Shown in pieces: positions 15,094 to 46,150 of a DNA stretch of 51,630 bases. The stretch lies in NCBI GenBank assembly GCA_028278675.1, contig JAQAJJ010000025.1, positions 1 to 51,630 on the forward strand. The letters run 5' to 3'. The notes beneath the pieces were generated by a model, which was not told the origin of the DNA, made no database searches, and was given only the letters and a program-made list of their open reading frames with translations. The stretch comes from Candidatus Azophilus lithoversatilis (GTDB lineage Bacteria; Pseudomonadota; Gammaproteobacteria; Pseudomonadales; Azotimanducaceae). The position numbers and the translations under genes are program-made. Every line of letters begins with the position of its first letter. Positions within the stretch are counted from its first letter, which is position 1.

Positions 15094-15108
15094 TGGGAAT
15101 CCGTATCT

Positions 15109-21876: not shown

Positions 21877-21884
21877 GTCCCTCC

Positions 21885-25219: not shown

Positions 25220-25268
25220 CCCGGCCGGCGGACCATCAAGGTCAGTCCCATGACTGAGGTCGGGCTAG
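25212..25268. terminator. Possible bidirectional terminator at a convergent junction
   Basis: CTAGCCCG at 25216-25223 pairs with CGGGCTAG at 25261-25268; inside are two small hairpins (GACC/GGTC at 25231-25243 and CAGTC/GACTG). CGGGCTAGCCCG at 25212-25223 is itself a perfect palindrome. The stops of both converging genes lie in the arms. No T-run, so the role is tentative. Confidence 0.35.
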
Positions 25269-26497: not shown

Positions 26498-26563
26498 GCG
26501 CTGGTCGGACCGGCCGAATCGAAGATGGCGGCTGGCGCCTCGGCGGTCAGCGACATCGGCTGG

Positions 26564-27193: not shown

Positions 27194-27202
27194 CGGTGGC
27201 CG

Positions 27203-28477: not shown

Positions 28478-28495
28478 TGGCTGCCTTCTCCTGCG

Positions 28496-28822: not shown

Positions 28823-28833
28823 GGAAGCACCCG

Positions 28834-31310: not shown

Positions 31311-31462
31311 CACAAGCGAACCTCCGGCGTCCGGGCAGCCGCCTTGGCCAGGACGTCGCTGTTCCTCGCTTGCTGGTTCTCATCGCTCCGCTGCAGGGAG
31401 CTGATCAGGAGAAGGCTGCCACTCAGGTCGCGCACTGGGCTCCCACTTGGAACAGGCGTCCA

Positions 31463-31554: not shown

Positions 31555-32277
31555 ATGGAGGACTACAGTCTCGGCTTGGCCCTGTTCGACTCCCTTCCGG
31601 TGCTCGTCTCCGCGTTCGGCCTCTGCCTGCTCGCGAGCCTTCTTGCCCGGGCGCTGCCGAGATCCCGGACGCTATTGCTGATCGGGGTCGCCCTAGTTGT
31701 CGCCGGAGGCTTGAGCAAGGCCGCTTGGAAGCTGATCTGGGTGCTCGCCCAGGTCAACATCGCCGTGCTCGACTCGCTGCTCTTCATCTGCATGGCGCCG
31801 GGCATGATCTTGCTGGCTTGGCACACGGCGGCCGCCGGCAGCCGTTGGCGAAGCGGCGCCGCAGCCATGGATCCCGGCCGCAACAGCCTGCTGCTCATCG
31901 TTCCGCTGTTGGCGGCGGCCGCTTATCTGGCGATGAGCCAGCCTGAAGGGCGCGCCTGGTTCTTTCTGCTGTTGGGGTCAGCGGCACTGGCCAACATCGT
32001 CATGTCGATCCTGTTGATCCGCCTGAGCTGGGGCTGGCACCAGCGACTGACGGCCGCGGTCTTTCTGGTCAGCATCCTGCTGATCCTATCGCTGAGCGGG
32101 CTGGCCCGCATTTCCGCCGGATCGGCGACGCTGCAGTGGTTCGCGGAGGTGCTCAACCTGTTCGCCACCGGCAGCTTCGCCTTGGCCGTATGGCGGTTGC
32201 GTCCGTTCGTGCCGGCGAGCACCGCGGCGGCACCGGGTTCCGCGGCGCCGGCCGGGCTGGTTGACCTGCGTACATGA
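31555..32277 (+). CDS. Integral membrane protein, unknown function
   Basis: A 240-residue protein with about seven hydrophobic helices (for example LPVLVSAFGLCLLASLLARAL, LLLIGVALVVAGGLSKAAWKLIWVL, AVFLVSILLILSLSGLARI). I do not recognise a family. The ATG at 31555 begins the first amphipathic and hydrophobic segment; the in-frame upstream codons read through the regulatory region. It is the first gene of a plus-strand operon, 10 bp before the MFS gene, which suggests a transport or sensing role for the island substrate. Confidence 0.65.
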   Translation: MEDYSLGLALFDSLPVLVSAFGLCLLASLLARALPRSRTLLLIGVALVVAGGLSKAAWKLIWVLAQVNIAVLDSLLFICMAPGMILLAWHTAAAGSRWRSGAAAMDPGRNSLLLIVPLLAAAAYLAMSQPEGRAWFFLLLGSAALANIVMSILLIRLSWGWHQRLTAAVFLVSILLILSLSGLARISAGSATLQWFAEVLNLFATGSFALAVWRLRPFVPASTAAAPGSAAPAGLVDLRT

Positions 32278-32287
32278 GGCAGCCATC

Positions 32288-33592
32288 GTGAGCGAGCGCA
32301 ACTTCCTGGGCATGAAGCTGGCGGGCGCCACCCGTCCCTTCAACATGTTCACCTTCTACTGGGCAGCGCTGACCGGAATCCTCCTCCAGACCTTCATTCC
32401 GCAGATGCAGCCCTATCTGCTGACCGAGTTCCTGCACATCCCGGAGGGCGAACAGGGCGTGGTCAGCGGCAAGCTCTCCTTTTGGGGCGAGCTGGTCATC
32501 ATCGTCATGGTCGGGGTCTGGGGCACCCTTTCGGACCGCATTGGCCGCCGGCCGGTGATGGCGCTCGGCTACCTGGTCATGTCTGCCGCCGTGTTCCTCT
32601 ACCCCCGGGCCGACAGTTACGAACAACTGCTGCTGGCGCGCCTGGCCTTTGCCGCGGGCGCGGCGGCCTATGCCGTGATGATCGTGACGCTGATCGCGGA
32701 CTACGTCAGCGACGACAGCCGCGGCAAGGCCACCGGCCTTATGGGTTTCTGCAACGGCTTGGGAGCACTGATTACGGTCATGCTCGTTCTGCGCCTGCCG
32801 AAGATGTTCCAGGACGGCGGCCAGACGCCGATCGAGGCGGGCCTCACCACCTACTCGATCATCGGTGGCCTGACGCTGTTCACTGGCCTGCTCATGTGGT
32901 TCGGGCTTCGGGATCTGCCTGTCGAGCGGCGGGAGCGGCACAAGCCCCTGCTCCAGCAAGCCCGGGCCGGGCTGCTCGCGGCCCGGGACCGCGGCATCGC
33001 CCTGGCGTACGGCGCATCCTTCGTGGCGCGGGGCAATCTGGCCATCGTCGGCACCTTCTTCACGCTGTGGCTGGCCAACTACGGCACCTTGGAACTCGGG
33101 CTCAGCCGGGCCGAAGCCATGGCCAGCGCGGGCATGTTCATTGCCATCGCCCAGTCCTCGGCGTTGTTGAGCGCACCCCTCTTCGGCCTGCTCACCGACC
33201 GCATCAACCGCGTTACCGCGCTGAATCTGACCCTGCTGCTCGCCTTTCTCGGCTACGGCGGCACCTGGTTCGTCGAAGACCCGTTTGCCGCGGGCATGAT
33301 CGTCTGCGCGGTGCTCATCGGCATGTCCGAGGTCGGCTGCATCATCACCAGTTCGGTGCTGATCGCCCAGCAGACCCCGGAACGGATCCGCGGCGCCGTG
33401 ATCGGCTTGTTCAACCTGACCGGCGCGGTGGGCATCATGGTGGCGAGCATAGTCGGCGGCATGCTGTTCGACGCTTGGCGGGAAGCCGCGCCATTCATCC
33501 TGTTCGGCCTGTTCGCGCTGGTCGTGCTCATCTGGGGGCTGCTGGTGCGCTCCAAAATCGAGCCCGTACCCGTAGAGGAAAGCGCGCCATGA
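32288..33592 (+). CDS. MFS transporter
   Basis: A 434-residue major facilitator with 12 predicted helices. The loop 2-3 signature is present as GVWGTLSDRIGRRPVMALGYL and the loop 8-9 equivalent as GLLTDRINRVTALNLTLLL. The GTG at 32288 with GAGG upstream is used. It resembles sugar/metabolite carriers rather than multidrug pumps. It sits in the catabolic island and may carry the imported compound across the inner membrane, or export a product. Confidence 0.85.
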   Translation: MSERNFLGMKLAGATRPFNMFTFYWAALTGILLQTFIPQMQPYLLTEFLHIPEGEQGVVSGKLSFWGELVIIVMVGVWGTLSDRIGRRPVMALGYLVMSAAVFLYPRADSYEQLLLARLAFAAGAAAYAVMIVTLIADYVSDDSRGKATGLMGFCNGLGALITVMLVLRLPKMFQDGGQTPIEAGLTTYSIIGGLTLFTGLLMWFGLRDLPVERRERHKPLLQQARAGLLAARDRGIALAYGASFVARGNLAIVGTFFTLWLANYGTLELGLSRAEAMASAGMFIAIAQSSALLSAPLFGLLTDRINRVTALNLTLLLAFLGYGGTWFVEDPFAAGMIVCAVLIGMSEVGCIITSSVLIAQQTPERIRGAVIGLFNLTGAVGIMVASIVGGMLFDAWREAAPFILFGLFALVVLIWGLLVRSKIEPVPVEESAP

Positions 33593-33723
33593 GCCAAGCC
33601 TGCAACGCCATGTTCCATGTGGCCGTCACCAGAAAATACGACGACATCAACCGCATTCCCTCGGAGGCGGCAGTCCGTTGGGGCGCAGCGGTTGCGAAAA
33701 TGGCTGGCGCCGGCGCCCGATGA
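33589..33723 (+). CDS. 44-residue coupled small protein, unknown
   Basis: A small open frame reading MSQACNAMFHVAVTRKYDD, then INRIPSEAAVRWGAAVAKMA and GAGAR. Its ATG overlaps the MFS stop (ATGA at 33589-33592) and its TGA overlaps the GST start (ATGA at 33720-33723). Such double coupling is the same as between the island's real genes and argues that it is translated. It has no membrane segment or signal. It could instead be a remnant of a larger deleted gene. No family recognised. Confidence 0.5.
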   Translation: MSQACNAMFHVAVTRKYDDINRIPSEAAVRWGAAVAKMAGAGAR

Positions 33724-34376
33724 AGCTGATCGGTCTGCCCCATTCCCCGTACTCGGCCCGGGTGCGCATGCAGATCTACGCCAAGGGCATCGACGTGGAA
33801 ATCGCGGCGCCCGAGGAATTCGGCACCGAAGCGTTCAAGCGCTTCAACCCGCTCGGCAAGGTGCCGGTGCTCGATACCGGCGAGCGGATGCTCCCCGAAT
33901 CCACGGTCATCATGGACTACCTTGAAGATACCCACCCGCATCCGCCGATGCGGCCTGCTGACCCCGGCCAGCGGGCCCTGATGAGCCTCTTCTGCCGGTT
34001 TCCCGATGTGTACATACAGCCCGCGCTGTTCCCGCTTTTCCAGCAATTGACCGCCAATCCACGGGATGGGCGCAGTGTGCGGGAGAACCGGGTCAATCTG
34101 TGCGCGCAGCTAACCAACCTCGAGCGGCTGATGTCGCGCTACGACCGCGGGATTCGCGACCGGCTCGACCTCGCCGACTGCGCCCTGGTGCCGATTCTCT
34201 TCTACGCGACCCAGGTGCCGGCCATTCTTGACGGCACCGATGTCCTCACCGACGTCCCGTTGGTGCGGGCCTGGTGGCAGTGGGTGCGGGACGAGGAACC
34301 CGCCGCTCGGGTGCTCCGGGAACTTGATACGAGCCTGCGGACGTTCCTGCAAAGGAGCGGCGGGTCGAACCCATGA
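33720..34376 (+). CDS. Glutathione S-transferase-like protein
   Basis: A 218-residue GST fold. The N-terminal thioredoxin-like domain has HSPYSARVRMQIYAKGID with a Ser/Tyr pair near the GSH thiol site, cis-Pro in LGKVPVLD and the ES(T/S) motif in LPESTVIMDYLED. The C-terminal domain has LDLADCALVPILFYA. The start is the ATG coupled to the small ORF. In this context it could conjugate or isomerise a reactive intermediate, for example a maleyl compound; this is inference. Confidence 0.82.
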   Translation: MKLIGLPHSPYSARVRMQIYAKGIDVEIAAPEEFGTEAFKRFNPLGKVPVLDTGERMLPESTVIMDYLEDTHPHPPMRPADPGQRALMSLFCRFPDVYIQPALFPLFQQLTANPRDGRSVRENRVNLCAQLTNLERLMSRYDRGIRDRLDLADCALVPILFYATQVPAILDGTDVLTDVPLVRAWWQWVRDEEPAARVLRELDTSLRTFLQRSGGSNP

Positions 34377-34390
34377 TCGGCCCTTGTGCA

Positions 34391-34450
34391 TGGGAGCCTT
34401 CAGCTTGCCCCCGAAACCCGCGCCACCGATGGCGAAGGAGACCTTAGTCG
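34391..34450 (-). repeat. Degenerate copy D of the 87-bp repeat
   Basis: TGGGAGCCTTCAGCTTGCCC followed by a GCGCCACCGATGGCGAAGGAG-like stretch is recognisably the C-orientation unit (TGGAAGCCCTTAGCTTGCCC ... GAAGGAAC) with about one change in three to four bases. It occupies the gap between the GST gene and the membrane protein gene, just before the latter's start. Confidence 0.55.
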
Positions 34451-34454
34451 GGCA

Positions 34455-35117
34455 ATGGAAAGCTACCTTCTTCTGAAGTACGCGCACGTCATCGCATTGG
34501 TCTATTGGCTGGGCGGTGACCTCGGCACCTTCTTGGCGAGTCGGCAGGTGGTGCGCCCTGATTTGGGCGTCGAGGCGCGGCGGGCTGCGCTGGAGATCAT
34601 GCTGGCTTGCGATCAGGGCCCGAAGCTCGCCATGCCCGCCAGCTTCACGCTGGGCTATCAAATGGCGGTCTCCCTCGGCCTGCTGGCATCCCCCGGCTGG
34701 CTGACCGCCGCCGTCTGGGTGGTTGGCATCGCCTGGTTTGCCAATGTGCTGGTGCTTTATCGGCATGAAGGCAAACCGTTCGCCGCCCGTCTCGCAGCCG
34801 TCGATTTTCGTTTCCGGATGGTCGTCATGGTCCTGATCGCCGCCGCCGCCGGTTACGGCCTCGCCGGCGCCCCGTACCTGTTGGACGACCGCATCGGCTG
34901 GAAGATGCTGATGTTCGCCGGGCTGATCGGTTGCGGGGTCATGATCCGCTGGCACCTCAAATCGTTCGTGCCGGCGTTCGCGTCCCTGGTCTCCAAAGGC
35001 GCCGACGACGCCGTCAACGATACGCTTAAAGGCTCGCTGGCCCGCTGCCGCCCCTATGTGGGGGCCATCTGGCTGGGGCTTTTCGTCAACGCCGCCGTCG
35101 GCATGCGGCTGTTGTGA
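34455..35117 (+). CDS. HemJ/CopD/DUF2269-like integral membrane protein
   Basis: A 220-residue protein with about five or six helices. Helix 1 reads YLLLKYAHVIALVYWLGGD, with His11, Trp18 and a Gly-Gly, the pattern of the HemJ (protoporphyrinogen oxidase), CopD and DUF2269 groups in which the His may bind haem. The ATG at 34455 follows GGGC only, so the SD is weak; the upstream frame is a repeat fragment. A membrane haem protein in a tetrapyrrole island is suggestive, but the group is broad and the function remains open. Confidence 0.6.
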   Translation: MESYLLLKYAHVIALVYWLGGDLGTFLASRQVVRPDLGVEARRAALEIMLACDQGPKLAMPASFTLGYQMAVSLGLLASPGWLTAAVWVVGIAWFANVLVLYRHEGKPFAARLAAVDFRFRMVVMVLIAAAAGYGLAGAPYLLDDRIGWKMLMFAGLIGCGVMIRWHLKSFVPAFASLVSKGADDAVNDTLKGSLARCRPYVGAIWLGLFVNAAVGMRLL

Positions 35118-35266: not shown

Positions 35267-36043
35267 TCAATGCTCGGCGAGGAGCGAGCCGAAACCGGGC
35301 ATGCGGTCCGGGATGCCGTTGTTGCGCAGGGCGTGCCAGAAGGTGACGGCATTGATCGCCAGCACTGGCTTGCCGAGTTCCCGTTCGAGTTGCGCGGCCA
35401 AGGCCACGAAGTACAGATTGGTTCCCGCCTGCAGGATCAGGTCCACGTCATCGCCGTCAACCTCGCGCACCAGCTCGCGGGTCTTGCCGAACGGCTCCCA
35501 AGCGATCTCCACCGGCCCCGGTGAGCAGTGCCCCTTAATGCGCACCACTTCGTAGCCGATGTCGGACATGAACTTCACCACCATGCGGTCGCCAACCGGC
35601 ATGTAGGGGGTCACCGCAGCAATCTTGCGTACGCCGGGATAGCAGGCCAGGGCGTCCATGATGGCTTGGGCGCCGAAGGTGATGTTGCAGCCGGCCACCT
35701 CCTGGGCGATGTCGTTGTACTTGCTGAATTCCCGGTCGGAGCGCTCCTTGCCGTCCCAAAACGTTTCGGCGGAATAGCCGAAGATGACATGATCGGGCTT
35801 GCAGGTGAGGGCATCGCGCAAGCCCTGTTCCGTGGCGTCGCCGATCGCCTTCACCATGTTGACGAAATCCGTCTCGTTCGCCACCTTGAACGGCGGGATC
35901 ACGCAACCGCGCGTGGCCAGCACGACGCCGGTCGGCTTCATCATCGAATATTCGCACTCAACCGCGGTGTTGGTGCTCGGCACCAGCACCGCGAACTTCC
36001 TTCTATATCCGTAGTAGTCGCCCTTGCAACGCGAGTTGTCCAT
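35267..36043 (-). CDS. Asp/Glu-racemase superfamily protein, catalytic Cys lost
   Basis: A 258-residue protein of the maleate isomerase/arylmalonate decarboxylase group: PSTNTAVECEY (residues 22-32), GYSAETFW (89-96), TPYMPVGDRMV, LQAGTNL (204-210), AINAVTFWHALRNNG. Maleate isomerases need two cysteines; arylmalonate decarboxylase keeps only the second. Here the first site is Ser91 and the second is Ala206, so neither is present. The paralogue at 41035 has the same length and Cys206. It may be non-catalytic, regulatory, or use different chemistry. It is the last gene of the minus-strand operon from the RCCR-like gene. Confidence 0.75.
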   Translation of the reverse strand: MDNSRCKGDYYGYRRKFAVLVPSTNTAVECEYSMMKPTGVVLATRGCVIPPFKVANETDFVNMVKAIGDATEQGLRDALTCKPDHVIFGYSAETFWDGKERSDREFSKYNDIAQEVAGCNITFGAQAIMDALACYPGVRKIAAVTPYMPVGDRMVVKFMSDIGYEVVRIKGHCSPGPVEIAWEPFGKTRELVREVDGDDVDLILQAGTNLYFVALAAQLERELGKPVLAINAVTFWHALRNNGIPDRMPGFGSLLAEH

Positions 36044-36138: not shown

Positions 36139-37101
36139 TCACAGGAATTTCGGCCCCAGGACCTCGCTGCCGGGCTGCCATCGCAACAGGCCGTGGGTGG
36201 TGTACCTGCGCCGCTGGGAGTGGAAGTAGTTCCAGTTGACCACCAGCGTGTAGTCCCGGTCGATGAGGGTCTCCCGAGTCTCGATGCGGGCAGCCTTGCC
36301 GTAGGCGTGCATGACGCTGTAGAGATAGCGTCCGTAGGCGATGCCGTTGCCGAACAGGTCGGGGCCGTGGTATTGGTGATGGTTGTGGTCGCGGGTGCGC
36401 TCGAAGGTCGCATCGCCGTCGATCACGCCGCTGGTCCTGATGCGCACCTCCGCCCGGGTGAGATTGATCGGCCGGTAGTCCATTGCCACCCGGTTGGTGC
36501 CGACGCGCTGCTGATCCTCCGTGTACACCTCCAGTTCCCCCTCCCAGGAGCCTGCGTGCTTCGGCGGCAGCACGAAGGGCCGCTTGCCCTCCAGGCGCTC
36601 GCGCTCCAGCCAGTCGGCGACCTTCTGCTGCGTCGCCGGGTTGTCCGGGTAGTCCTGGGTGACAATGTAGAGGCCGTTGAACGTCGCGATCAAGGTGGCG
36701 CCTTCAAAGAGCAGCGAAGAATAGACCTGCATTTCCAGTTCCGGCACCACGTGATTGACGGTGCGCAGGTGGCTGTTCCAGGCCGGCGAGAAATACTCGG
36801 AATCCACCAGTGAGCCGTAGGGGCTGCCCGAGCCGATCAGGTCCGGGCCGGTGTAGATGCGGTCATTGTCGGAGTCGATGACGCCGAAGTCGAAGCGTCC
36901 GATCTCGAAGCGATTGCGCAGATGCCCCACCGCATCGAAATCGGTTTCCATCCAGTAGCGGGTTCTGCCGTCCCTGTGTTCGCTGGCGCGGGAGACGATG
37001 TTATGGCCCACGTAGGTGCCGTCGGGTTCGTACACTGAGGGTGCGCCGTGCCACTCGCCGGAGATCAGCTTCTGCCAGTTGCTCGGTTGTTTGTCGGTCA
37101 T
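36139..37101 (-). CDS. Internally duplicated 320-residue protein, unknown (lipocalin-like repeat suspected)
   Basis: The protein contains two similar halves. GEWHG at 15-19 matches GSWEG at 184-188, and YTGPDLIGSG at 83-92 matches YHGPDLFGNG at 244-253, with comparable spacing and many alternating beta-type residues. G-x-W-x-G near the start of a beta domain recalls lipocalin/calycin proteins, including CpcS/DUF3598-type proteins that bind tetrapyrroles, but this is a loose resemblance. A histidine-rich stretch (H239, H241, H242, H245) could bind metal. No signal peptide. It lies 23 bp after the chlorophyllase-like gene. Candidate tetrapyrrole carrier or Mg-removing enzyme; both are speculative. 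Confidence 0.6.
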   Translation of the reverse strand: MTDKQPSNWQKLISGEWHGAPSVYEPDGTYVGHNIVSRASEHRDGRTRYWMETDFDAVGHLRNRFEIGRFDFGVIDSDNDRIYTGPDLIGSGSPYGSLVDSEYFSPAWNSHLRTVNHVVPELEMQVYSSLLFEGATLIATFNGLYIVTQDYPDNPATQQKVADWLERERLEGKRPFVLPPKHAGSWEGELEVYTEDQQRVGTNRVAMDYRPINLTRAEVRIRTSGVIDGDATFERTRDHNHHQYHGPDLFGNGIAYGRYLYSVMHAYGKAARIETRETLIDRDYTLVVNWNYFHSQRRRYTTHGLLRWQPGSEVLGPKFL

Positions 37102-37124
37102 GGTTCAGTCCCTGTTGATTGCCC

Positions 37125-38120
37125 CTATTTCGTTTCTGCAACCGCGGCCAGCGGGTGCTGGGGATGGCACAATTGCGACAGGGCCCCTGCGGCCTCACTG
37201 TCGCCCTTGCCGATGCTCCGGCAGAAAGTGACGACCACTTCCGCCAGATAGCTGCGGATCTGTTGTTCGCTGCCCCGGGAGGTCCAGTCGAGATAGGGCC
37301 GTCCGGTGGACGAGTCCTTGGGCCAGACGAAGGCGAAGTGGTTGGCGCCCTCGACAATGAGCAGGTGCCTGCCGCCGCCGTTGCCTCGAATGCCTTCGTG
37401 AAAGGTTCGCTGGACGGTGTCGGACACAGGCTTTCCCCCGCCATCCCGGTAACGATGGCCGCTCGCCGCGATCACGCCATCACGGGTGCCGCCCATGATC
37501 AGAAGCGGCGTTTCCGGGGCCAGCGGCATGATGCTGTCCGCTGGCCACCCCAGCTTCAGGTTGCCGGCGCTGTGCGCGGCGTAGGAGAAGGCGCCGCAAA
37601 GGCCTGGAAACCAGTTGCGATTGGCGTTGATGAGCGCCATGGTCCCACCGGCCGAATGGCCGCCGAGGATCAGGTGGTCGAGATCGAGCAGTCCGGCCAG
37701 CAAGCTGTCCGAGTGCACCCGCCGCAGCTCGTCGAGCAGGGCGGGCAGCGCCGGACAGGAAGGTTCCTTGCCGTACCGGCTGCGCATCAGGGGTTCAAAC
37801 GCCACCCCGGGACTGGCGCTGACCCGATCGCCGATTTCCACGGTTATCCAGCTGTAGGTCACGGCGGCAAACCCGGCGTTGGCCAAGGCCTTGGCGATCC
37901 AGCCATAGGCCTCCAGGGAGATGTTCACCCCGGGCATCAGGATCACGACCGGAAAGGGCGCACGGGTCGCATCCGGCGGCACGAACCCGGTGTCCCGCTC
38001 CTCGAAGCTGTTCCCGTAGGCGCACGGGTAGTGGATCTTCAACGTGACGTTGTCGTAAGGCGGTTCGCGCCCCTCCACCCTCGCGGCGCGGTACACCGCT
38101 CTGACTGGGATGCGCTTCAT
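37125..38120 (-). CDS. Chlorophyllase-like alpha/beta hydrolase
   Basis: A 331-residue serine hydrolase. The oxyanion region is PFPVVILMPGVNISLEAYGW (55-74) then IAKALANAGFAAVTYSW, as in the chlorophyllase/PAF-acetylhydrolase-like group. The nucleophile elbow is GGHSAGG with Ser156, followed by a likely Asp214 (GTRDG) and His261 (GANHFAF). Plant chlorophyllase has GHSRGG in the same setting and cleaves the phytyl ester; pheophytinase does the same after Mg loss. It starts 6 bp after the RCCR-like gene, so one mRNA is expected. An esterase acting on the phytyl or methyl ester of a chlorophyll derivative is the contextual hypothesis; a general esterase is the alternative. Confidence 0.65.
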   Translation of the reverse strand: MKRIPVRAVYRAARVEGREPPYDNVTLKIHYPCAYGNSFEERDTGFVPPDATRAPFPVVILMPGVNISLEAYGWIAKALANAGFAAVTYSWITVEIGDRVSASPGVAFEPLMRSRYGKEPSCPALPALLDELRRVHSDSLLAGLLDLDHLILGGHSAGGTMALINANRNWFPGLCGAFSYAAHSAGNLKLGWPADSIMPLAPETPLLIMGGTRDGVIAASGHRYRDGGGKPVSDTVQRTFHEGIRGNGGGRHLLIVEGANHFAFVWPKDSSTGRPYLDWTSRGSEQQIRSYLAEVVVTFCRSIGKGDSEAAGALSQLCHPQHPLAAVAETK

Positions 38121-38126
38121 GGCCGG

Positions 38127-38933
38127 CTATTGCGGCCTGGGCAATACCCGCCCGCCGCCCCATAGCGCATCGGCCAGCTTCATCGTGAGCTGCTTCCCGT
38201 ACATCCCCTCGACCATCGCGTTCATGGGGTCACGCAGCGCGATCTGGCGCCGGACGTGCTCGTCCCTGGCCGCTTGGGCCGGGCGTTCGTCTTCCGGGAC
38301 GATTGCGGATTTCTCCACGTTGGCAAGCCATTGGTCAACGAGCTTTTGCGACGTATCCCGCAGTGTGCGCATGTTTTCGGGATTGTCCGGCGCCGTAAAG
38401 CAGAGGCTGGCGGCGGTCTGGGTGACGCGCATGTAGAGACTGCGGCTGATGAAGCTGGTGAGATTCGAATCGTCCTGCAGACGCAGGTGCTCCTCGTTCA
38501 ATTCATGGTAGTACTTGTCCATGTACTGGGGGTTGGCGGCCAAGTCCTTGCGCGGTATGAAGTCCATGTACCAGAACAGATCCGGAGCAGTACCGAAGGC
38601 GAGACCGAGGTTGGGGGCATCGAATTTGGCCGACAGGCTCACCGTCAGGTGCATGTTGCTGAAACCGGCCTTGGGATTGCCCACCCAGGAGAACACCAGC
38701 CAGTCGATCTCGGGGCCTGCGAAGGTGCTCAGGCTGCCGCCGGCGCCACTGCCGTCGATGGATTGGTAGGGCTGCAGATCAGCCGTGGACGGGTCCGCCT
38801 GCAGTTCGAAACGGGCCGAGACTTTCTCGAAGAGTTCACGGAGAACGCCCCACAGCGTGTCGAAGGTTGCCCGGTTGTCGATCGCGGGACGAGCTTCCAT
38901 CTCATCGATCAGCGACCGGGTGGATTTGGGCAT
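38127..38933 (-). CDS. Red chlorophyll catabolite reductase (RCCR)-like protein B
   Basis: A 268-residue soluble protein, near the length of mature plant RCCR. The central block PDLFWYMDFIPRKDLAANPQ then YMDKYYHELNEEHLRLQ (117-152), followed by FISRSLYMRVTQTAASLCF (161-179), closely follows the plant RCCR pattern (LLPRKDL, PxYxxKYY, SSSLYxR, SPTAxSV). A long C-terminal helical part ends in ARDEHVRRQIALRDPMN. Plant RCCR reduces the C15/C16 bond of red chlorophyll catabolite, the product of pheophorbide a oxygenase, using ferredoxin. The start ATG at 38933 is the first in the usable region; no strong SD is seen. It heads an operon with the chlorophyllase-like hydrolase and is divergent from the Rieske oxygenase, 64 bp apart. 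Confidence 0.75.
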   Translation of the reverse strand: MPKSTRSLIDEMEARPAIDNRATFDTLWGVLRELFEKVSARFELQADPSTADLQPYQSIDGSGAGGSLSTFAGPEIDWLVFSWVGNPKAGFSNMHLTVSLSAKFDAPNLGLAFGTAPDLFWYMDFIPRKDLAANPQYMDKYYHELNEEHLRLQDDSNLTSFISRSLYMRVTQTAASLCFTAPDNPENMRTLRDTSQKLVDQWLANVEKSAIVPEDERPAQAARDEHVRRQIALRDPMNAMVEGMYGKQLTMKLADALWGGGRVLPRPQ

Positions 38934-38997
38934 TTGAATTGAACCAGCTCGCTCTATTGATATATCTTTATGTAAAACCGAGCGGGATGCAACAACC
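38934..38997. promoter_or_regulatory. Divergent promoter region of the RCCR-like and Rieske operons
   Basis: A 64-bp spacer, AT-rich against the GC-rich surroundings. It contains the palindrome GATATATC (38960-38967) inside CTATTGATATATCTTTATG and is flanked by an imperfect CGCTC/GAGCG pair (38950s and 38980s). Both flanking genes must be controlled from here, so coregulation is likely. Confidence 0.5.
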
Positions 38998-40155
38998 ATG
39001 TTGATCAACCTTTGGTACGTCGCGGAGTGGTCCGAGAAGGTCACGGACAAGCCCGTTCGGGTTCGCCTGCTGGGACAGGATTTCGTGCTGTTCCGGGACA
39101 GCTCCAACAAGGTCCATTGCTTGCACGATGTGTGCCTGCACCGCGGCGGCTCCCTCTCCGGCGGCTGGACCCGGGGTGACTGCATCGCCTGCCCCTATCA
39201 CGGCTGGCGTTACGACGGCGAAGGCCGGGTGACGCTGGTGCCCTCCGAGGGGGCCGAGTTTCAGCCGCCCCAGCGGGCCCGGATCGATGCCTACCCAACC
39301 GCCGAGCGCTACGGCATGATCTGGGTGTTTCTGGGGGATGCGCCGGAAGAGGAGCGCTTTCCGCTGCCCGAGTTCCCCGAGTACGACGACCCCAGCTGGA
39401 AGCGGCTCAACGACAACTGGCAGTGGAAGGCGGATGCGGCGCGCATCGTCGAGAACGGCATCGACATCGCCCACACCTCCTTCGTGCATCCGTCGTTCGG
39501 CATGGAGGCGACCGCCCGGGAAAACCAGATCCTGTCGGTGGAGAACAACGAGTACTGGGGCAAATCGGAGAACGTCCAATACCCGCCCCAGTTCAAGGAC
39601 AATTGGCTGCGCCGCCGCATGCGCAAGGAGCGCCAGCCCACCGTCACGACCCCGGAGTGGTTCCTCAACGGCCTGGTCGCCCGCATCCGCGTGGACATCA
39701 ACGACCGCATGTCGATCATCATGTTCGATTGCAATACGCCCATTGACGAGAACAACACCCGCACGTTCGCGATCCAGTTGCGCAACTTCTTCAAGCACGA
39801 TTTCTTCGACAGGGGTTCGCGCAAGCGCCTGCTGAAGATCTTTGCCGAGGACACGGCCATCCTGGAACGGGTGGCGCCCGTCCATTTGGCCTCGGACTTA
39901 AGCAACGAGCTTTCGGTCAAGGACGACCGCTTCATGAGCAGCTTTCGCAACGCCCGCCGGGCGCTGATCGAACGCAAGGGCTGGCGCATCGACGTCGGCC
40001 ACATGGCGCAACTGCGCGGCGAGAAGGTTCTGGCCATTCCCTCGCCGCAGCGGCGCCTGCATCCGGACATCCAGTGGGTCATGGACAGTGTGCCCCTAAT
40101 TGCGCCCACCGGCCGCGCGGTCGAGGAACCGCTCGCGGATGGCGAGGTTGCCTGA
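38998..40155 (+). CDS. Rieske non-haem-iron oxygenase, candidate macrocycle-opening enzyme (PAO-like role)
   Basis: A 385-residue oxygenase alpha subunit. The Rieske [2Fe-2S] ligands are Cys46-x-His48 and Cys65-x2-His68 (CLHRGG, CPYHGW). The mononuclear iron site is D156-IA-H159-TSFV-H164. It is of the single-component, VanA/PAO-type size and needs an external reductase. Plant pheophorbide a oxygenase has in addition a C-terminal CxxC motif and membrane helix, which I do not see here. No reductase gene is adjacent. The position, divergent to an RCCR-like gene and upstream of a chlorophyll b reductase-like SDR, is what points to a tetrapyrrole substrate; another aromatic substrate is possible. 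Confidence 0.85.
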   Translation: MLINLWYVAEWSEKVTDKPVRVRLLGQDFVLFRDSSNKVHCLHDVCLHRGGSLSGGWTRGDCIACPYHGWRYDGEGRVTLVPSEGAEFQPPQRARIDAYPTAERYGMIWVFLGDAPEEERFPLPEFPEYDDPSWKRLNDNWQWKADAARIVENGIDIAHTSFVHPSFGMEATARENQILSVENNEYWGKSENVQYPPQFKDNWLRRRMRKERQPTVTTPEWFLNGLVARIRVDINDRMSIIMFDCNTPIDENNTRTFAIQLRNFFKHDFFDRGSRKRLLKIFAEDTAILERVAPVHLASDLSNELSVKDDRFMSSFRNARRALIERKGWRIDVGHMAQLRGEKVLAIPSPQRRLHPDIQWVMDSVPLIAPTGRAVEEPLADGEVA

Positions 40156-40201
40156 TTCGCGTCACGCAGGTGAACGCCCTGCAGAAAACGGAGGAAGCCC
40201 G

Positions 40202-41011
40202 ATGCCGGACAGCAGGACCGTCGTCGTCACCGGCAGCACCCGAGGCATAGGGCTGGGGCTCGCGGAGCAGTTTCTGCGGCGCGGCTGCCGGGTGGTGGTC
40301 AGCGGAAGGTCCCCGGAGGTGGTCAGCCGCGTGGCCGACCGGTTGAGCGCCGGCGCCGATGCGCCCCGGGTTGCCGGATGCGCCTGCGACATCACCAGCG
40401 CATTGGACCTGCAGGTGCTTTGGGACTTCGCCATCGACAGGTTCGGCCGAGTCGATGTCTGGATCAACAACGCCGGCATCAGCATCACCAGGGCCCCGCT
40501 TTGGGAACAGCCGGTGGCCGATATCCAAGCCATCGTCAAGACCAATCTCACCGGTGCGCTGCTGGCCGGCAAGGTGGTCATGGCGGGCATGAAGGAGCAG
40601 GGCGGCGGCCAGATCTGGAACATGGAAGGCTTCGGCAGCAATGGCATGACCAGCCCAGGGCTCGCCGCCTACGGCGCAACCAAGCGCGCCGTCAACTATC
40701 TCCACAAGGCACTGCGCAAGGATGCCGCCGGAACCGGCATCCGGATCGGCACCCTCAGCCCCGGCATCGTGGTCACCGACCTCCTGATCGGCGACTACGA
40801 CACCGCCACCGAGGAGTGGCGCAAGGCCAAAAGGCTGTTCAACATTCTCGGCGATACCGTGGAGACCGTGACACCCTTCCTGGTCGATGGTGTGCTCAAC
40901 GCGACAAGGGACGGCGCGAGGGTCGCCTGGCTGACCGGCGGCAAGGCATTGCGCCGGTTTCTGACCGCACGGTTCAACAAGCGCGACCTGTTCGCGGACC
41001 TTGGCATCTGA
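40202..41011 (+). CDS. Chlorophyll b reductase (NOL/NYC1)-like short-chain dehydrogenase
   Basis: A 269-residue SDR. NADPH motif TGSTRGIG (10-17), NNAG (89-92), Ser146 in NMEGFGSNG, Tyr157 and Lys161 in AYGATKRAV, so the catalytic set is complete. Beyond general SDR features it follows plant NOL/NYC1: SRSPE after the second strand, ACDI, VWINNAG, NMEGFGS against plant NMDGAGS, LSPGIVVTDLLI against LSPGMVTTDLLM, and the C-terminal pattern RLFNILGD, then ETV, FLV and a basic-aromatic end. Plant NOL and NYC1 reduce the C7 formyl group of chlorophyll b to 7-hydroxymethyl chlorophyll a. GGAGG precedes the ATG. It is 46 bp after the Rieske gene. Confidence 0.75.
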   Translation: MPDSRTVVVTGSTRGIGLGLAEQFLRRGCRVVVSGRSPEVVSRVADRLSAGADAPRVAGCACDITSALDLQVLWDFAIDRFGRVDVWINNAGISITRAPLWEQPVADIQAIVKTNLTGALLAGKVVMAGMKEQGGGQIWNMEGFGSNGMTSPGLAAYGATKRAVNYLHKALRKDAAGTGIRIGTLSPGIVVTDLLIGDYDTATEEWRKAKRLFNILGDTVETVTPFLVDGVLNATRDGARVAWLTGGKALRRFLTARFNKRDLFADLGI

Positions 41012-41034
41012 GGCTTCCCGCGCAGGACACTGGG

Positions 41035-41811
41035 ATGGACAACTACCAACTCGCCCGCCGGGCTCGTATCGGCGTGCTCATCCCGTCCACCAACACCGGC
41101 GTGGAGTACGATCTGCAGAAGTTTGCGCTCGACGGCGTGACCTGGCATCCGTCGCGGTTCTGGATCGAACTCAGGAACTGGGCCGACGAAAACACCCGCA
41201 CCGGCGAGGGGATGGACAGCGTGTTTGAGCGCTTCCTGGAACTGATGCGCAAAGAGCTGCCCGGTGCCATCGAACGCGTGGTCAGCGCCGACATCACCCA
41301 CCTGATGCTGGGCATGTCGGCGGAGACCTTCTGGGGAGGCCTGGCCGGCAATGCCGAGTTCGAGCAGGGCATCCGCGACCAGATCGGCGATCTCGGCCTG
41401 AGCACCGGCGCCGGCGCCACTCGCGACTCCCTCAACGCGTTTGGCGCCCGATCGATCGCGGTGATCACCCCCTATCCGCCGGTGGGCGACGACAACGTGC
41501 GCCGTTTCTTCGGCGAGATCGGCTTTGCCGTCAAGGGCATCGCCGGGCTCTGCCGGCCTTCGGCCACCGCCATCGCCGAGACGACCATTGAAGACGTGAT
41601 GGATGCGGTTCGGCGGGTGGACGCCGACGATGTCGATGCGATCGTGCAATGCGGCACCAATCTGTCCGCGGTGGACATCTTCCCCACCTTGGAACTGTGG
41701 CTGCGCAAGCCGCTGATCCCCATCAACGTCGCCTGCATCTGGCACGCGCTTCGAGCCTGCGGCGTGAACGATCGGATCACCGGCAAGGGCAGGCTGCTGG
41801 AAGAGTTCTGA
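41035..41811 (+). CDS. Asp/Glu-racemase superfamily enzyme, single-Cys (arylmalonate-decarboxylase-like)
   Basis: A 258-residue protein with PSTNTGVEY (17-25), LGMSAETFW (92-100), TPYPPVGDDNV and VQCGTNLS with Cys206. The first catalytic position is Ser95, not Cys, as in arylmalonate decarboxylase (GTS ... CGG), whereas maleate isomerases carry two cysteines. It is therefore more likely a decarboxylase or other single-base enzyme than a maleate isomerase. It lies 23 bp after the SDR gene. The paralogue at 35267 sits at the end of the opposite operon with Ala206. Confidence 0.78.
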   Translation: MDNYQLARRARIGVLIPSTNTGVEYDLQKFALDGVTWHPSRFWIELRNWADENTRTGEGMDSVFERFLELMRKELPGAIERVVSADITHLMLGMSAETFWGGLAGNAEFEQGIRDQIGDLGLSTGAGATRDSLNAFGARSIAVITPYPPVGDDNVRRFFGEIGFAVKGIAGLCRPSATAIAETTIEDVMDAVRRVDADDVDAIVQCGTNLSAVDIFPTLELWLRKPLIPINVACIWHALRACGVNDRITGKGRLLEEF

Positions 41812-41828: not shown

Positions 41829-44456
41829 CTAAAAGCTGTAGTTTACGGTCAGGCCGATGGTGCGTGGCGTGCCCAGTCCGACGATGTAGCGGGTAAAGGA
41901 AGGCAGCACGAAGCTGTTGGCCACATACTCCTTGTCGAAGATGTTACGGCCCCAAATCGTTACGCGCCAATCGTTGCCGCTCAGGCTGATGTTGGCGTTC
42001 GACAGGGTGCGGCCGCCGTTGTGCGCCAGGTTGAGGGGCGTGGCGTACATGCGGCTGCGGTAGTTGAAGTCGATGCGGGCATCGAGTCGCCAGTCGCCGC
42101 CGAGGCTGCCCGTGTAATTGAGACCCGCGCCGTACTGCCACTTTGAGGTGCGCTCCACCCGGTTGCCCTTCACCTGCCCGTCGGCGCGGCAGACCGTGTT
42201 GTTGCAACCCCATGAGGAAAGGGGGCCGGCGACGGAACTCTGGTAAACCGAATCCCGGTACTCCGCATCGCTGTAGGCCAGCTGGTAGTCGAAGTAAAAG
42301 TTGTCGGTGGCCACCAGCAGCCCGTCAACCTCCAAGCCCACCACCTTGGCATCGCCGATGTTGCCGACCACGTCGACAGTCCAGGCATCGAGGCTGCTTG
42401 CCGCCTCGGTGCCCTGGACGTTCTTCCAGTCGATGACGTAGGCCGCCCCGTTCAAAGTAAGCCGGTCGTTCATGAAGAGGTTCTTCGAACCGACTTCGAA
42501 AGTCCAGTTGCTCTCTGCGTCAAAGACCGCCTGATCCGGATTCGCGGTCGGGTCCACGGCATTGAAGCCGCCGGTCTTGACGCCCTTGGCAACCAGGCCG
42601 TAGAGCATGTTGTCTTGGGTGGGCTGCCACTCCAGAATGACCCGGGGCGTGAAGAAGGTGAATTTCTTGTCGTCGGTCGAAGCCACGTTGCCGGGGAGCG
42701 GCGCCCCTAAGGTGGTGGAGAACTGCTCGAAGTTCTTCTTCTCCCAAGTGTAGCGCGCCTCCAGGGCCATCGTGAACTGCTCGGTGACCTGCCACTCCAG
42801 GTCGCCGAACAGCGCCGTGACCTTGTCCTCCAAGGCGGTGTGATTGCCCAGCAGCCCATGGCCCGTGTCGTAAAAGTGGGGGATGCCGACATGCACCACA
42901 TTCGGAACGACCTGGACGACCGCCAGGTACCGGTCGGCGAGGGGGTTGCTGCCCTGGGGCACGTGCGTGCCGCAGTTCGCTTCGCTATCGCAGGGGGTCA
43001 GGAAGTAGAAGGTGTTGCCGTCTTCATCGTCGTTTTCCGAATAGTAGAAACCCATGCGCATCGTCAGGTTCTCGCCGCTCCGGGTCAGGCGGAACTCGTG
43101 GCTGGTCGCTTCCAGCTTCTCGGACGGATTGGCGTAGAAGCTGGACGCATGGGCAATGGCTCCCATCGATCCGGGCGGGCCGAGTTGAGTCAGGAAGGGC
43201 GGGAAGGGCGTCGCCTGCACCGGCGCATAGGGGACCGAGGAGCCCACTAGGCTGCCGCGCCCCTCCAATACCCCGAAGGTATCGGCCTCATGGTCCACCC
43301 GGCCGAACTGATAGTTCAGCGAAAGGGTTTCGGTCATGTCGTAGTTCAGGTTGAAGCGGGCGATCTTCGAATTGGAATCGAGCGCCATCGAGCGCGGGTC
43401 GATGATGACACGGCCGGAAGTGCCACCGAAACCCGCGGCCTGCAGCTTGGGATCGGGAAGTTCGGGCACCGAACTCGGCAACTTGCCGCACCAAGCATGG
43501 GGCCCTGCGGCCGGGAATGGCGCCCGGTTGCTGAACGTCACCGTGTTCAGGCAATTGGCCCCCAGCGGCGCCAGGAAACGGAACGTCGGCGGACCCGCGA
43601 ATTCGGCCGTGTCATAGGCGTAGCGCGCGCCATTGAGGTCGTAGAATGCCTGAGGTTCGCGAATCGACTTGGTCTGGAAGTAGCTGGCGCCGATTTCCAG
43701 TTCGTTGGTCGGGGTCCAGCGCAGCGCTGCGGTGTTGAACTCGTCATCCCAGCCGCCGACTCGGTCATCGGTGCTCTTGGAATCGCCGGGTCCGCTGTCG
43801 GCAAAGGGGTGATGGTTCTTCGTGTGTCCATCGTATTCGGAGATGCCGCCCGCAAGCCGCAGGAACATCCTGCCCTCGACCAGCGGGATCGATGCGCTGG
43901 CGCGCAGGTCGAGGCGGTTGCCGTCGCCATAGGTCGCCGTGGCATTGCCGGACAGCTCATCCGACGGCTTCTTGGTGATGTAGTGCACCACGCCCGCAAA
44001 GGCATTGCGGCCGAACTGGGAATTCTGGGGCCCCTTGACCACTTCGACCCGCTCCAGTTCCATCAACCCGGGATTGACCATCGACTGGCGTTGCAGGTAA
44101 ATGCCATCGAGAAACACCGCGGTGTTCTGCACCCGGGCCGTGGTGAAGGTTTGGCCCATGCTGCGGATGACCGCCGCGGTGGAAAGGCCTGCCGTGGCGT
44201 AATTCTCGTAGATCAGCCCCGAGGTCTCCTGGGCAATGTCCTGCAGATCCCGGAATTGCCGCTGCTGCATTTGCTCGTCGGCAAATGCGGTCACCGACAG
44301 CGGTACATCCTGCAGGTTGTCGTCCCGCTTGCGGGCGGTGACGATGATCTCCTCAATGATGTTGGCGCCGCCGCTCTGGGCTGCGGCCAGAGGCGCCAGC
44401 CCCCCATAGGCCCCTGCCGCGATGGCGACACAAAGCAATATACGAAAAACCCTCAT
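41829..44456 (-). CDS. TonB-dependent outer-membrane receptor
   Basis: An 875-residue receptor with a signal peptide (MRVFRILLCVAIAAGAYGGL, cleavage near APLAAAQ), a plug domain starting IEEIIVTARKRDDNLQDVPL, the conserved VEVVKGPQNSQFGRNAFAGVV, and a beta-barrel ending in ...GLTVNYSF with terminal Phe. The ATG at 44456 has GAGGGA just upstream and is preferred to the TTG at 44471. Four cysteines in extracellular loops (CLNTV, WCGK, CDSEANCG, CNNTVC) may form disulfides. It converges on the racemase-family gene with 17 bp between. Substrate unknown; a large hydrophobic tetrapyrrole would need such a receptor. Confidence 0.92.
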   Translation of the reverse strand: MRVFRILLCVAIAAGAYGGLAPLAAAQSGGANIIEEIIVTARKRDDNLQDVPLSVTAFADEQMQQRQFRDLQDIAQETSGLIYENYATAGLSTAAVIRSMGQTFTTARVQNTAVFLDGIYLQRQSMVNPGLMELERVEVVKGPQNSQFGRNAFAGVVHYITKKPSDELSGNATATYGDGNRLDLRASASIPLVEGRMFLRLAGGISEYDGHTKNHHPFADSGPGDSKSTDDRVGGWDDEFNTAALRWTPTNELEIGASYFQTKSIREPQAFYDLNGARYAYDTAEFAGPPTFRFLAPLGANCLNTVTFSNRAPFPAAGPHAWCGKLPSSVPELPDPKLQAAGFGGTSGRVIIDPRSMALDSNSKIARFNLNYDMTETLSLNYQFGRVDHEADTFGVLEGRGSLVGSSVPYAPVQATPFPPFLTQLGPPGSMGAIAHASSFYANPSEKLEATSHEFRLTRSGENLTMRMGFYYSENDDEDGNTFYFLTPCDSEANCGTHVPQGSNPLADRYLAVVQVVPNVVHVGIPHFYDTGHGLLGNHTALEDKVTALFGDLEWQVTEQFTMALEARYTWEKKNFEQFSTTLGAPLPGNVASTDDKKFTFFTPRVILEWQPTQDNMLYGLVAKGVKTGGFNAVDPTANPDQAVFDAESNWTFEVGSKNLFMNDRLTLNGAAYVIDWKNVQGTEAASSLDAWTVDVVGNIGDAKVVGLEVDGLLVATDNFYFDYQLAYSDAEYRDSVYQSSVAGPLSSWGCNNTVCRADGQVKGNRVERTSKWQYGAGLNYTGSLGGDWRLDARIDFNYRSRMYATPLNLAHNGGRTLSNANISLSGNDWRVTIWGRNIFDKEYVANSFVLPSFTRYIVGLGTPRTIGLTVNYSF

Positions 44457-44560
44457 GATTCCCTCGTCCAACTATCCGTTCTGTCCATAATCCAATGCGG
44501 CCTACTGCATTCACCGCACTGGCCCGTTGTCCTTCAAGCCTCGCCGACGCCAGGTTTCAG

Positions 44561-44884: not shown

Positions 44885-46150
44885 TCAAGCCGTTGAGGCC
44901 ATGTTCCGCAGGGCCGGCTCCGGACCCTCGGCCTGCTGCAGCACACCCTCGGCAACTCCGCGGGCGATGTGCGCCGGGGTCATTCCCGCCCACTCTTCCA
45001 GAACCTCCGCGGTATTGGCGCCGAGCAGCGGCGGCGGCGTCATCGACTCATCGTTGTTCAGTGACAGCTTGACGGGATTGCCGGGCACGCGCGCGCGGCC
45101 GCCCAAGGGATGCTCGAGATCCACGAACATGTTGCGGTGCAGCACCTGCGGGTCGCTGAGCGCCTGGGCGAAGTTGTTGATCCGGGCGCAGGGAACGCGC
45201 ACCGCCGCCAATGCCTCCAGCCACTCCTGGGCCGGCCTTGTGCGCAGCCGTTCGCCGATCAACCTTTCGATGAACGGCTTTTGCTTCAGCCGCTCGGCGG
45301 CCGTGTCGAAGCGCGGATCGCGCAGCGCATCGACATCGACCACGTCCAGCAGCGGTGGCCAGAAGGTGTCGCCGATGACGGCGATGACGATCATGTCGTC
45401 AAGCGTTGCGAAGGTGTTGTAGGGGGTGTGGACGAAGTGGCTGTTGCCGATGGGCCCCGGAATGTCCCCCGACATGGCGTACATGGTCGCCATGTAGTTC
45501 AACAGGCTGATCTGCACGTCGAGCATGGAGATGTCCACGTGCTGGCCGATGCCGGTCCGTTGCCGGGCGAGCAGGGCGGCCTGGATGCCCATGACCGCGA
45601 ACATGCCCCCGCCTAGGTCGCCGATCGGGATGCCCGCCCGCACCGGCTCCCCGGCCTGCTTGCCAGTGATTGACATGCCGCCGCCAAGTCCCTGCACGAT
45701 CTGGTCGAAGGCCGGCCGCCGAAAGTCCGGCCCGTCCTCGCCAAAGCCGGTGATCGTGCAGGTGATGATGGCCGGGTTGTACTCGATCAGCGTCTCGTGA
45801 TCGATCTTCAGTCGCTTGGTCACACCGGCTGAAAAATTGTCCAGCACCACATCGGCGTGACGAACCAGTTCGTAGATGAACTCAAGCCCGGACGCCGACT
45901 TCAGATCGATGGCGACCGACCGCTTGTTGCGGTTCAAGGTGAAAAAGTAGGCGCCCATGCCCCGGATCGAGTGATTCGGGTCGTTTTCCAGCAGCCGCCG
46001 CGTGCCCTCACCACGGCCCGGCGGTTCCACCTTCACCGTGTCGCAGCCGAGATCGGCGAGAATCATTCCCGCATAGGGACCGGACAGCATGTGGGTCAGG
46101 TCGATGACCCGGATGCCGGACAATGGCTTGTTGGGCGCGGGTGTGGACAT
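44885..46150 (-). CDS. Family III CoA-transferase (CaiB/BaiF type)
   Basis: A 421-residue CoA-transferase. N-terminal LSGIRVIDLTHMLSGPYAGM, then ILADLGCDTVKVEPPGRGE, with the catalytic Asp expected in IGQHVDISMLD (about 175-180). Later segments (FVHTPYNTF, RVPCARINNFAQALSDPQV) are normal. It moves CoA between carboxylic acids, probably succinyl-CoA and an acid formed in the island. The ATG at 46150 is used; the open frame runs further upstream without similarity. A 12-bp palindrome 31 bp upstream is a likely GntR operator. Confidence 0.88.
   Translation of the reverse strand: MSTPAPNKPLSGIRVIDLTHMLSGPYAGMILADLGCDTVKVEPPGRGEGTRRLLENDPNHSIRGMGAYFFTLNRNKRSVAIDLKSASGLEFIYELVRHADVVLDNFSAGVTKRLKIDHETLIEYNPAIITCTITGFGEDGPDFRRPAFDQIVQGLGGGMSITGKQAGEPVRAGIPIGDLGGGMFAVMGIQAALLARQRTGIGQHVDISMLDVQISLLNYMATMYAMSGDIPGPIGNSHFVHTPYNTFATLDDMIVIAVIGDTFWPPLLDVVDVDALRDPRFDTAAERLKQKPFIERLIGERLRTRPAQEWLEALAAVRVPCARINNFAQALSDPQVLHRNMFVDLEHPLGGRARVPGNPVKLSLNNDESMTPPPLLGANTAEVLEEWAGMTPAHIARGVAEGVLQQAEGPEPALRNMASTA

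Follow-up and report, generated by a model that had tools for sequence, protein, structure and literature searches.

Can a gammaproteobacterium take apart chlorophyll or another tetrapyrrole? The question is raised by a locus on contig JAQAJJ010000025.1 of Candidatus Azophilus lithoversatilis (Pseudomonadales, Azotimanducaceae; assembly GCA_028278675.1), of which positions 1 to 51,630, hereafter the window, were analysed. Vast quantities of chlorophyll are synthesised and broken down every year, and to our knowledge the bacterial enzymes that mineralise it, or the phyllobilins left by plants, have not been named. The plant pheophorbide a oxygenase (PAO)/phyllobilin pathway, which comprises NYC1/NOL, pheophytinase/chlorophyllase, PAO and RCC reductase (RCCR), ends at phyllobilins. 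The original prediction had seen four families of this plant pathway side by side in the window, and had proposed that they may open and reduce chlorophyll-derived or other tetrapyrroles. In our analysis an RCCR-family protein, a second protein with the fold shared by RCCR and the ferredoxin-dependent bilin reductases (FDBRs), and conservation of the gene set in other phyla all stood, and the assignment to four families of one plant pathway did not. We consider it probable, with some reserve, that the region from 25265 to about 46150 is a catabolic tetrapyrrole gene cluster in the full form set out below.

The four genes named earlier were confirmed in position and strand from the open reading frame (ORF) list of the window: an alpha/beta hydrolase (37125..38120, minus strand), the RCCR-like protein (38127..38933, minus), a Rieske non-haem-iron oxygenase (38998..40155, plus) and a short-chain dehydrogenase/reductase (SDR; 40202..41011, plus). 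They form two divergent units separated by 64 bp between 38127-38933 on one side and 38998-40155 on the other. The ORF finder extends the 38127 frame to 39185, and the orthologue alignments begin at the ATG at 38933. Genes at 36139 and 35267 on the minus strand and at 41035 on the plus strand, at small intergenic spacing from these four, are further members of the set.

Two RCCR-superfamily proteins in the window

The protein of 268 amino acids at 38127..38933, designated RCCR1, matched the Pfam RCC_reductase model PF06405 with an E-value of 1.3e-17 (64.4 bits, cut-off 24.9). Arabidopsis RCCR (AtRCCR) entries were its sole sequence matches in the PDB (3e-11), and a profile built from 25 RCCR1-type proteins matched AtRCCR at 2e-21, GtPEBB at 5e-10 and tomato HY2 at 5e-7. 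Judged from these matches, RCCR1 is a true relative of plant RCCR. A second protein, RCCR2 (266 amino acids; 28834..29634, minus strand), fell under the Pfam RCC_reductase cut-off (E 0.026, 14.2 bits), and the sequence profile of its family reached AtRCCR with an E-value of only 0.12. Comparison with the RCCR1 family by hhalign gave a probability of 98 and an E-value of 1.8e-13. A Foldseek search with its AlphaFold2 model (pLDDT 90.7) returned RCCR, PebA, PcyA, PebB and HY2, all with a probability of 1.00. By predicted fold, RCCR2 belongs with RCCR1 in the RCCR/bilin-reductase superfamily, as its divergent second member in the window; the shared fold is supported by this model for RCCR2 and by profile alone for RCCR1. 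The original prediction depended on a match of both proteins to RCCR or bilin reductases by profile or structure, and such a match was found for each. The fold common to RCCR and FDBR is also noted in PMC13193486.

In a joint alignment, many rows of which come from near relatives, two acidic columns were compared. The first is the Asp of the GtPEBB LGLDLV motif and corresponds to AtRCCR Glu154 (numbered from the F218V entry; a search of the open-licence literature for RCCR residue numbers was negative). It was acidic in all 26 RCCR2 sequences and in 4 of 32 RCCR1 sequences, all four cyanobacterial; the window RCCR1 has Ala. The second column was Asp in 32 of 32 RCCR1 sequences, including that of the window, and in 24 of 26 RCCR2 sequences, and AtRCCR has Asp290 there, with Asp291 adjoining. 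We take both columns to be catalytic in known enzymes, with Glu154 and Asp290/291 as the acidic pair of AtRCCR; titles of PDB entries name D105 of PcyA, and D105 and D206 of PebS, as residues picked for mutation. Because both acidic columns are largely kept, the RCCR2 active site is likely to be a complete bilin-reductase site. RCCR1, which lacks the acid at the Glu154 position in 28 of 32 sequences, need not catalyse the plant reaction, and its activity probably departs slightly from that of plant RCCR.

The maximum-likelihood tree, rooted on two partial FDBRs, placed AtRCCR with RCCR1 and apart from RCCR2 (SH-aLRT 76, UFBoot 97). Support for RCCR2 as one clade was only 66 (UFBoot), and that for bacterial RCCR1 was 81. 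The tree and the residue counts cover 58 of 62 RCCR sequences (identical ones dropped; several near-identical) with three references, namely one plant RCCR and the two partial FDBRs; loci L057-L068 lie outside both.

These results bear on an alternative in which the substrate is an external bilin derived from heme or phycobilisomes (biliverdin, bilirubin, urobilins or phycobilins) and the Rieske oxygenase and hydrolase trim side chains without opening a chlorin. The bilin-reductase acid pair of RCCR2 and its fold matches to PebA, PcyA and PebB would fit such a substrate, whereas the tree, with its single plant sequence, groups RCCR1 with plant RCCR and not with the two partial FDBRs. We regard this alternative as rather unlikely; it overlaps the broad form of the tetrapyrrole reading, and the probabilities given to the two are not exclusive.

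Conservation of the gene set across phyla

RCCR1 is rare. It was detected in 4 of 97 relatives with the Pfam model and in 4 of 369 sampled genomes of the class with a custom profile, the genome of Ca. A. lithoversatilis being included in both counts. Four other Pseudomonadales genomes, three from the search of 97 relatives and one (L011) from a scan of contigs, keep RCCR1, the hydrolase, the Rieske oxygenase, the 36139 protein and the Amd genes (described below) at 63-88% identity. The contig scan yielded 21 loci from Gammaproteobacteria, Anaerolineae/Chloroflexi, cyanobacteria and actinobacteria. In total 38 loci were compared, of which 33 carry RCCR1. Among these 33, the Rieske oxygenase was found in 24, the hydrolase in 23, RCCR2 in 19, the 36139 family and Amd proteins in 18 each, the SDR in 15, an acyl-CoA-dehydrogenase-fold protein in 13, a nitrilase in 12, an isochorismatase-family protein in nine and an FAD monooxygenase in six. 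Families were assigned by BLAST (28% identity, 55% coverage or a contig edge), so that divergent copies are missed, and loci cut by contig ends are scored as absences. L062 duplicates L027, the two being a single contig; L030 is part of G590; and L012-L014, as copies of G006, G001 and G044, were omitted. The SDR of L011 (427-1034), which reads as two overlapping fragments in separate frames, as a frameshift would give, was not counted.

The earlier claim that the grouping is unlikely by chance was borne out by the strong RCCR match and by the recurrence of the same Rieske and hydrolase types beside RCCR1; the argument is one of conservation across genomes. Chance or misread ORFs were rejected as an explanation, as homologous sets with roughly 30-88% identity are present in three phyla. 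In Microtetraspora glauca (L024), eight members stand in a row: nitrilase, RCCR1, hydrolase, Rieske oxygenase, RCCR2, the 36139 protein, SDR and Amd. In a second gammaproteobacterial genus (G338, G433), the nitrilase, RCCR2, the acyl-CoA-dehydrogenase-fold protein, Amd, RCCR1 and the hydrolase were found, with the Rieske oxygenase in G433 only. The operon at 25265-31313 is tied by such shared gene sets to the operons seen originally. A functional basis for the linkage is probable, because parts of the set, with up to eight consecutive genes, are shared by Gammaproteobacteria, Chloroflexi and actinobacteria. The prediction that it would be conserved elsewhere held for parts of the set in these three groups. 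The SDR and AmdB of G001 are separated from its Rieske gene by about 8 kb.

A search of M. glauca relatives with RCCR2 only was positive for 9 of 149 genomes. Five other large genomes (8.2-9.6 Mb) all have RCCR1, the Rieske oxygenase, SDR, Amd and nitrilase beside RCCR2. In three actinobacterial genomes of only 1.4-1.7 Mb, RCCR2 is present in multiple copies, five apiece in two of them; of seven RCCR2 loci retrieved from these genomes, two carry RCCR1 and the Rieske oxygenase. The five RCCR2-type genes of G563 (L062, L064, L066, L067) and of G590 (L063, L065) are spread over several contigs, and some adjoin copies of the nitrilase, FAD monooxygenase or hydrolase. If the boldest reading given below, complete mineralisation of chlorophyll, is true, these small-genome actinobacteria with five RCCR2 copies each would be specialists living on tetrapyrroles.

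PMC2716323 describes homologues of RCCR in Nostoc and Anabaena, with two adjacent ones in N. punctiforme. The five cyanobacterial loci compared here have the same RCCR1 family, and the hydrolase occurs in one; unlike the cluster, they have no Rieske oxygenase, RCCR2 or SDR beside RCCR1 (0 of 5). In Nostoc/Desmonostoc (L019-L021) two RCCR1 copies are paired with a nitrilase after the second (checked with Pfam in L019), and the plant-like Glu is present in one copy of each pair only. In L019 an NmrA-like gene lies between the two copies. G461 has two stand-alone RCCR1 homologues (L038, L039), and in Nonomuraea corallina (L026, 10001-10780) RCCR1 lies near genes for a luciferase-like monooxygenase and a peptide-type ABC importer, as in M. 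glauca; the rest of the set was not found within about 10 kb in either. No match to RCCR1 or RCCR2 was obtained in 72,556 plasmid records by tblastn at E 1e-3, and no RCCR1 relative was found in viral contigs by a single-sequence search, which is sensitive to close relatives only.

Rieske oxygenase, hydrolase and SDR

The Rieske protein belongs to the VanA/KshA class (Rieske 6e-22, VanA_C 7e-19). The ligands of the Rieske cluster are kept in 24 of 24 orthologues and the iron ligands in 23 of 24, with one gap. It is a Rieske oxygenase, as predicted, with its ligands kept, and not a member of the PAO family, being of VanA_C type without a PaO domain. It shares 30% identity over 213 columns, mainly in the Rieske part, with a Nostoc protein that has the PaO domain. 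PaO-domain matches at E 0.001 were found in 4 of 27 genomes, two of these cyanobacteria. Their lack in the other 23 would also suit the bilin alternative, against which stands the linkage of hydrolase and Rieske oxygenase to RCCR1 in three phyla.

The hydrolase at 37125 retains Ser and Asp in 24 of 25 orthologues and His in 25 of 25. Its Abhydrolase, PETase (0.02) and Chlorophyllase (0.19) matches are weak and all below the Pfam cut-offs, and its naming as a chlorophyllase was not upheld. The SDR (adh_short 9e-40) has its catalytic Tyr and Lys conserved in all 15 orthologues and matches general SDR models among the profile matches listed; no chlorophyll b reductase was present among the best 60 of its 193 PDB matches. 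A literal PAO pathway was rejected on the Rieske protein, without a PaO domain, and on the hydrolase, with its sub-cut-off matches. Like the plant pathway, the locus has an RCC_reductase-family protein adjoining a Rieske oxygenase, a hydrolase and an SDR; unlike it, the cluster has a Rieske protein without the PaO domain and a hydrolase that is not a chlorophyllase by profile, and it adds a second reductase, amidases and isomerase-like proteins.

Probable substrate and its possible source

Of 12 genomes that have the cluster or RCCR1, two of them under 90% complete and five of unstated completeness, only 1 gave a match to heme oxygenase (PF01126), and it was not that of Ca. A. lithoversatilis. 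A bilin pathway fed by heme oxygenase is made less likely by this count. Since heme oxygenase is scarce, either the macrocycle would be opened by another enzyme, for which the linked Rieske oxygenase is the natural candidate, or the substrate would already be open. According to PMC10151467, pre-PcyA clusters occur in heterotrophic bacteria, those of pre-1 and pre-3 typically with heme oxygenase, V4R, Fe-S and globin genes, and RCCRs and related sequences serve there as an outgroup. The present cluster resembles these and other FDBRs in superfamily, fold and heterotrophic hosts, and differs in the scarcity of heme oxygenase and in its catabolic-enzyme neighbours.

Two RCCR/FDBR-superfamily reductases, conserved linkage, retained active-site residues and this scarcity together argue that the substrate is a tetrapyrrole, which we hold to be likely. 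Chlorophyll is favoured because heme oxygenase is scarce and RCCR1 is kin to plant RCCR; chlorophyll itself as the substrate is a good possibility that falls somewhat short of probable. A literal copy of the plant steps is disfavoured because a PAO-type enzyme and the acid at the Glu154 position are lacking.

Candidate enzymes for the lower pathway

The set reaches beyond the stretch named in the original prediction, to about 25265-46150, and its further genes encode amidases, maleate-isomerase-like proteins and a CoA-transferase, which are indicative of catabolism. AmdB (41035..41811, plus strand) belongs to the AMDase/maleate-isomerase superfamily (Amdase 1.6e-15; maleate cis-trans isomerase 1.3e-10). 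Its paralogue AmdA (35267..36043, minus) matched Amdase at 1e-5 (25.8 bits, cut-off 25.9) and EutA at 8e-13. One AMDase-type Cys is present in AmdB and none at that place in AmdA. A nitrilase-superfamily amidase with two CN_hydrolase stretches (29607..31313, minus; PF00795 1.4e-48) keeps the family Glu, Lys and Cys in 13 of 14 orthologues, with one gap, and an isochorismatase-family amidohydrolase (26564..27193, minus; PF00857 1.2e-37) keeps Asp, Lys and Cys in 9 of 9. The acyl-CoA-dehydrogenase-fold protein (27203..28477, minus; Acyl-CoA_dh domains) is a probable flavin monooxygenase: among solved chains, DnmZ (6e-20), which we take to be a flavin monooxygenase, and other FAD-dependent oxidoreductases rank above acyl-CoA dehydrogenases. 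An FAD-dependent monooxygenase (FAD_binding_3; 25265..26497, minus; PF01494 2e-62) has relatives of 39-49% identity in 8 of 37 other loci.

In the Chloroflexi loci L029 (families by scan) and L022 (by BLAST clustering), further genes of the operon encode a fusion of flavin reductase and HMG-CoA lyase, hydratase subunits of LeuC and LeuD/DmdB type, and a CoA-transferase. L029 also has an aldehyde dehydrogenase and a hydantoinase/allantoinase-like cyclic-amide hydrolase, the latter with 70% identity to its counterpart in G338 and 65% to the one in the L015 genome. In Ca. A. lithoversatilis, a stretch of about 15 kb on another contig (C83) carries genes for an HMG-CoA-lyase-type protein, a CaiB-type CoA-transferase, a LeuC-like hydratase, an isochorismatase, a nitrilase and an aldehyde-dehydrogenase-like protein. 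The CoA-transferase of C83 is 52% identical to that of L029, and its LeuC-like hydratase is below the leuC equivalog cut-off. The best models for the M. glauca CoA-transferase were succinate-glutarate, formyl-CoA and mesaconate CoA-transferases, all under their cut-offs. By analogy with the known maleimide and dimethylmaleate pathways, we infer that the C83 and L029 genes could serve a route from maleimide through maleamate, maleate and a CoA ester to retro-aldol cleavage.

The isochorismatase-type amidase, maleate-isomerase-like protein and FAD monooxygenase are features shared with the nicotinate/maleamate (Nic) and dimethylmaleate pathways, as is the LeuD/DmdB-type subunit of L029. The cluster differs from both in that its Amd proteins keep the Cys in 12 of 25 only, and we know of no RCCR-fold reductase in either pathway. 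The likeness leads to a further alternative, in which another N-heterocycle or aromatic compound is degraded and the proteins of RCCR fold now act on a new substrate. The Rieske and flavin oxygenases also recall Nic-type pathways, and the acid at the Glu154 position is missing in 28 of 32 RCCR1. Two superfamily members occur together in 19 of 38 loci with their acidic columns largely kept, however; known members of the superfamily act on tetrapyrroles, and the solved relatives of RCCR2 found by Foldseek are consistent with this. We judge this alternative improbable.

Proposed pathway and its weighing

For the tetrapyrrole cluster, the substrate, the order of steps and every reaction are put forward from family membership, fold, conserved active-site residues and linkage. 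A tetrapyrrole, most likely chlorophyll-derived or else an already open bilin, would be taken up; the hydrolase would remove ester groups and the Rieske oxygenase would open or hydroxylate it. RCCR1 and RCCR2 would then reduce the linear tetrapyrrole at two positions with electrons from ferredoxin, and the flavin monooxygenases would cleave the product to one-ring units. The nitrilase and isochorismatase-family amidases may open these units and remove nitrogen, after which the AMDase/maleate-isomerase-like proteins and the CoA-transferase could channel substituted maleate skeletons to central metabolism, joined by the aconitase-type hydratase and HMG-CoA-lyase-type lyase encoded elsewhere in such genomes. 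An aerobic, horizontally spread pathway that degrades pyrrole units via maleamate/maleate-type acids is the best explanation of the set. The boldest form, complete bacterial mineralisation of chlorophyll, is tentative and on balance doubtful: in it an independently recruited Rieske oxygenase would open the chlorin, two RCCR/bilin-reductase-type enzymes would reduce the red linear product, and the pieces would pass through maleimide/maleamate/maleate-type acids into central metabolites.

Several observations weigh against the tetrapyrrole cluster. The Rieske protein has no PaO-domain (PF08417) match at E<=1, and its closest solved chains are SxtDIOX/SxtT, NdmA and a 3-ketosteroid hydroxylase. 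Nine of the 33 RCCR1 loci lack the Rieske oxygenase (five cyanobacterial, two of the gammaproteobacterium G461, L026, and L040, truncated where its contig stops), and RCCR1 thus also occurs outside the set. Five of the seven RCCR2 loci retrieved from small actinobacterial genomes (L064-L068) lack both RCCR1 and the Rieske oxygenase. The lack of the Glu154-position acid in most RCCR1 and of the AMDase-type Cys in about half of the Amd proteins points the same way. No ferredoxin or electron-transfer gene was noticed in the cluster among ORFs above 90-100 amino acids, and the hydantoinase-like gene had no match in the Ca. A. lithoversatilis genome at E 1e-20. HMG-CoA-lyase-type enzymes with CaiB are common in other pathways. 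Staygreen (Mg-dechelatase) was found in 0 of 27 genomes, a count that is uninformative because the controls were equally silent.

No description of a bacterial cluster of this kind was found in the open-licence literature among the matches listed. The gene set supplies named candidate enzymes for tetrapyrrole breakdown, and RCCR1, RCCR2 and the 36139 family could serve as marker genes in environmental surveys. It also offers a bacterial background against which the origin of plant RCCR can be viewed; if the boldest form is true, plant RCCR would represent a single branch within an old family of bacterial proteins. RCCR2 adds a divergent RCCR/FDBR subfamily whose active site is likely complete.

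Other genes and features of the window

The protein at 36139..37101 (minus strand) had no Pfam, NCBIfam or PDB sequence match. Its predicted structure (pLDDT 91.4) has two beta-barrels in a tandem-lipocalin-like arrangement, nearest to BFA1 and a Nostoc DUF3598 protein. An MFS transporter (32261..33592, plus) is a likely member of the set, with genes of 73-77% identity near the cluster in G001, G044 and L011, and a TonB-dependent receptor (41829..44471, minus), whose counterparts close to the cluster of G001 and of G006 are 62-63% identical, is a possible importer. Such a lipocalin-like fold could carry a pigment, and Rieske and SDR enzymes are common tailoring enzymes, which would suit genes for the synthesis or tailoring of a pigment or natural product of bilin type. 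That alternative is very improbable: the linked amidases, CoA-transferase, HMG-CoA-lyase-type lyase and aldehyde dehydrogenase suit catabolism, and a solute-binding protein and the TonB and MFS transporters suit uptake.

Membership is uncertain for three genes: a family III (CaiB) CoA-transferase (44885..46150, minus; PF02515 9e-118), which is just 31% identical to the CaiB of other clusters, and, from the Pfam scan, a glutathione-S-transferase-like protein (33678..34376, plus) and a protein outside Pfam families (34386..35117, plus). Homologues of the latter two lie near the cluster in G001 only, among three relatives compared. From translations only, a xanthine-dehydrogenase/CO-dehydrogenase-like gene pair and a TRAP-type transporter were recognised at 9684-14150 and 20755-23793; they were unmatched in the relatives' loci compared with the window. 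Rfam and tRNA scans of the window gave no matches. Copies of a repeat unit of about 87 nt are present at 28450-28828, 15107-15310 and 10711-10799, one array lying between the acyl-CoA-dehydrogenase-fold gene and RCCR2.

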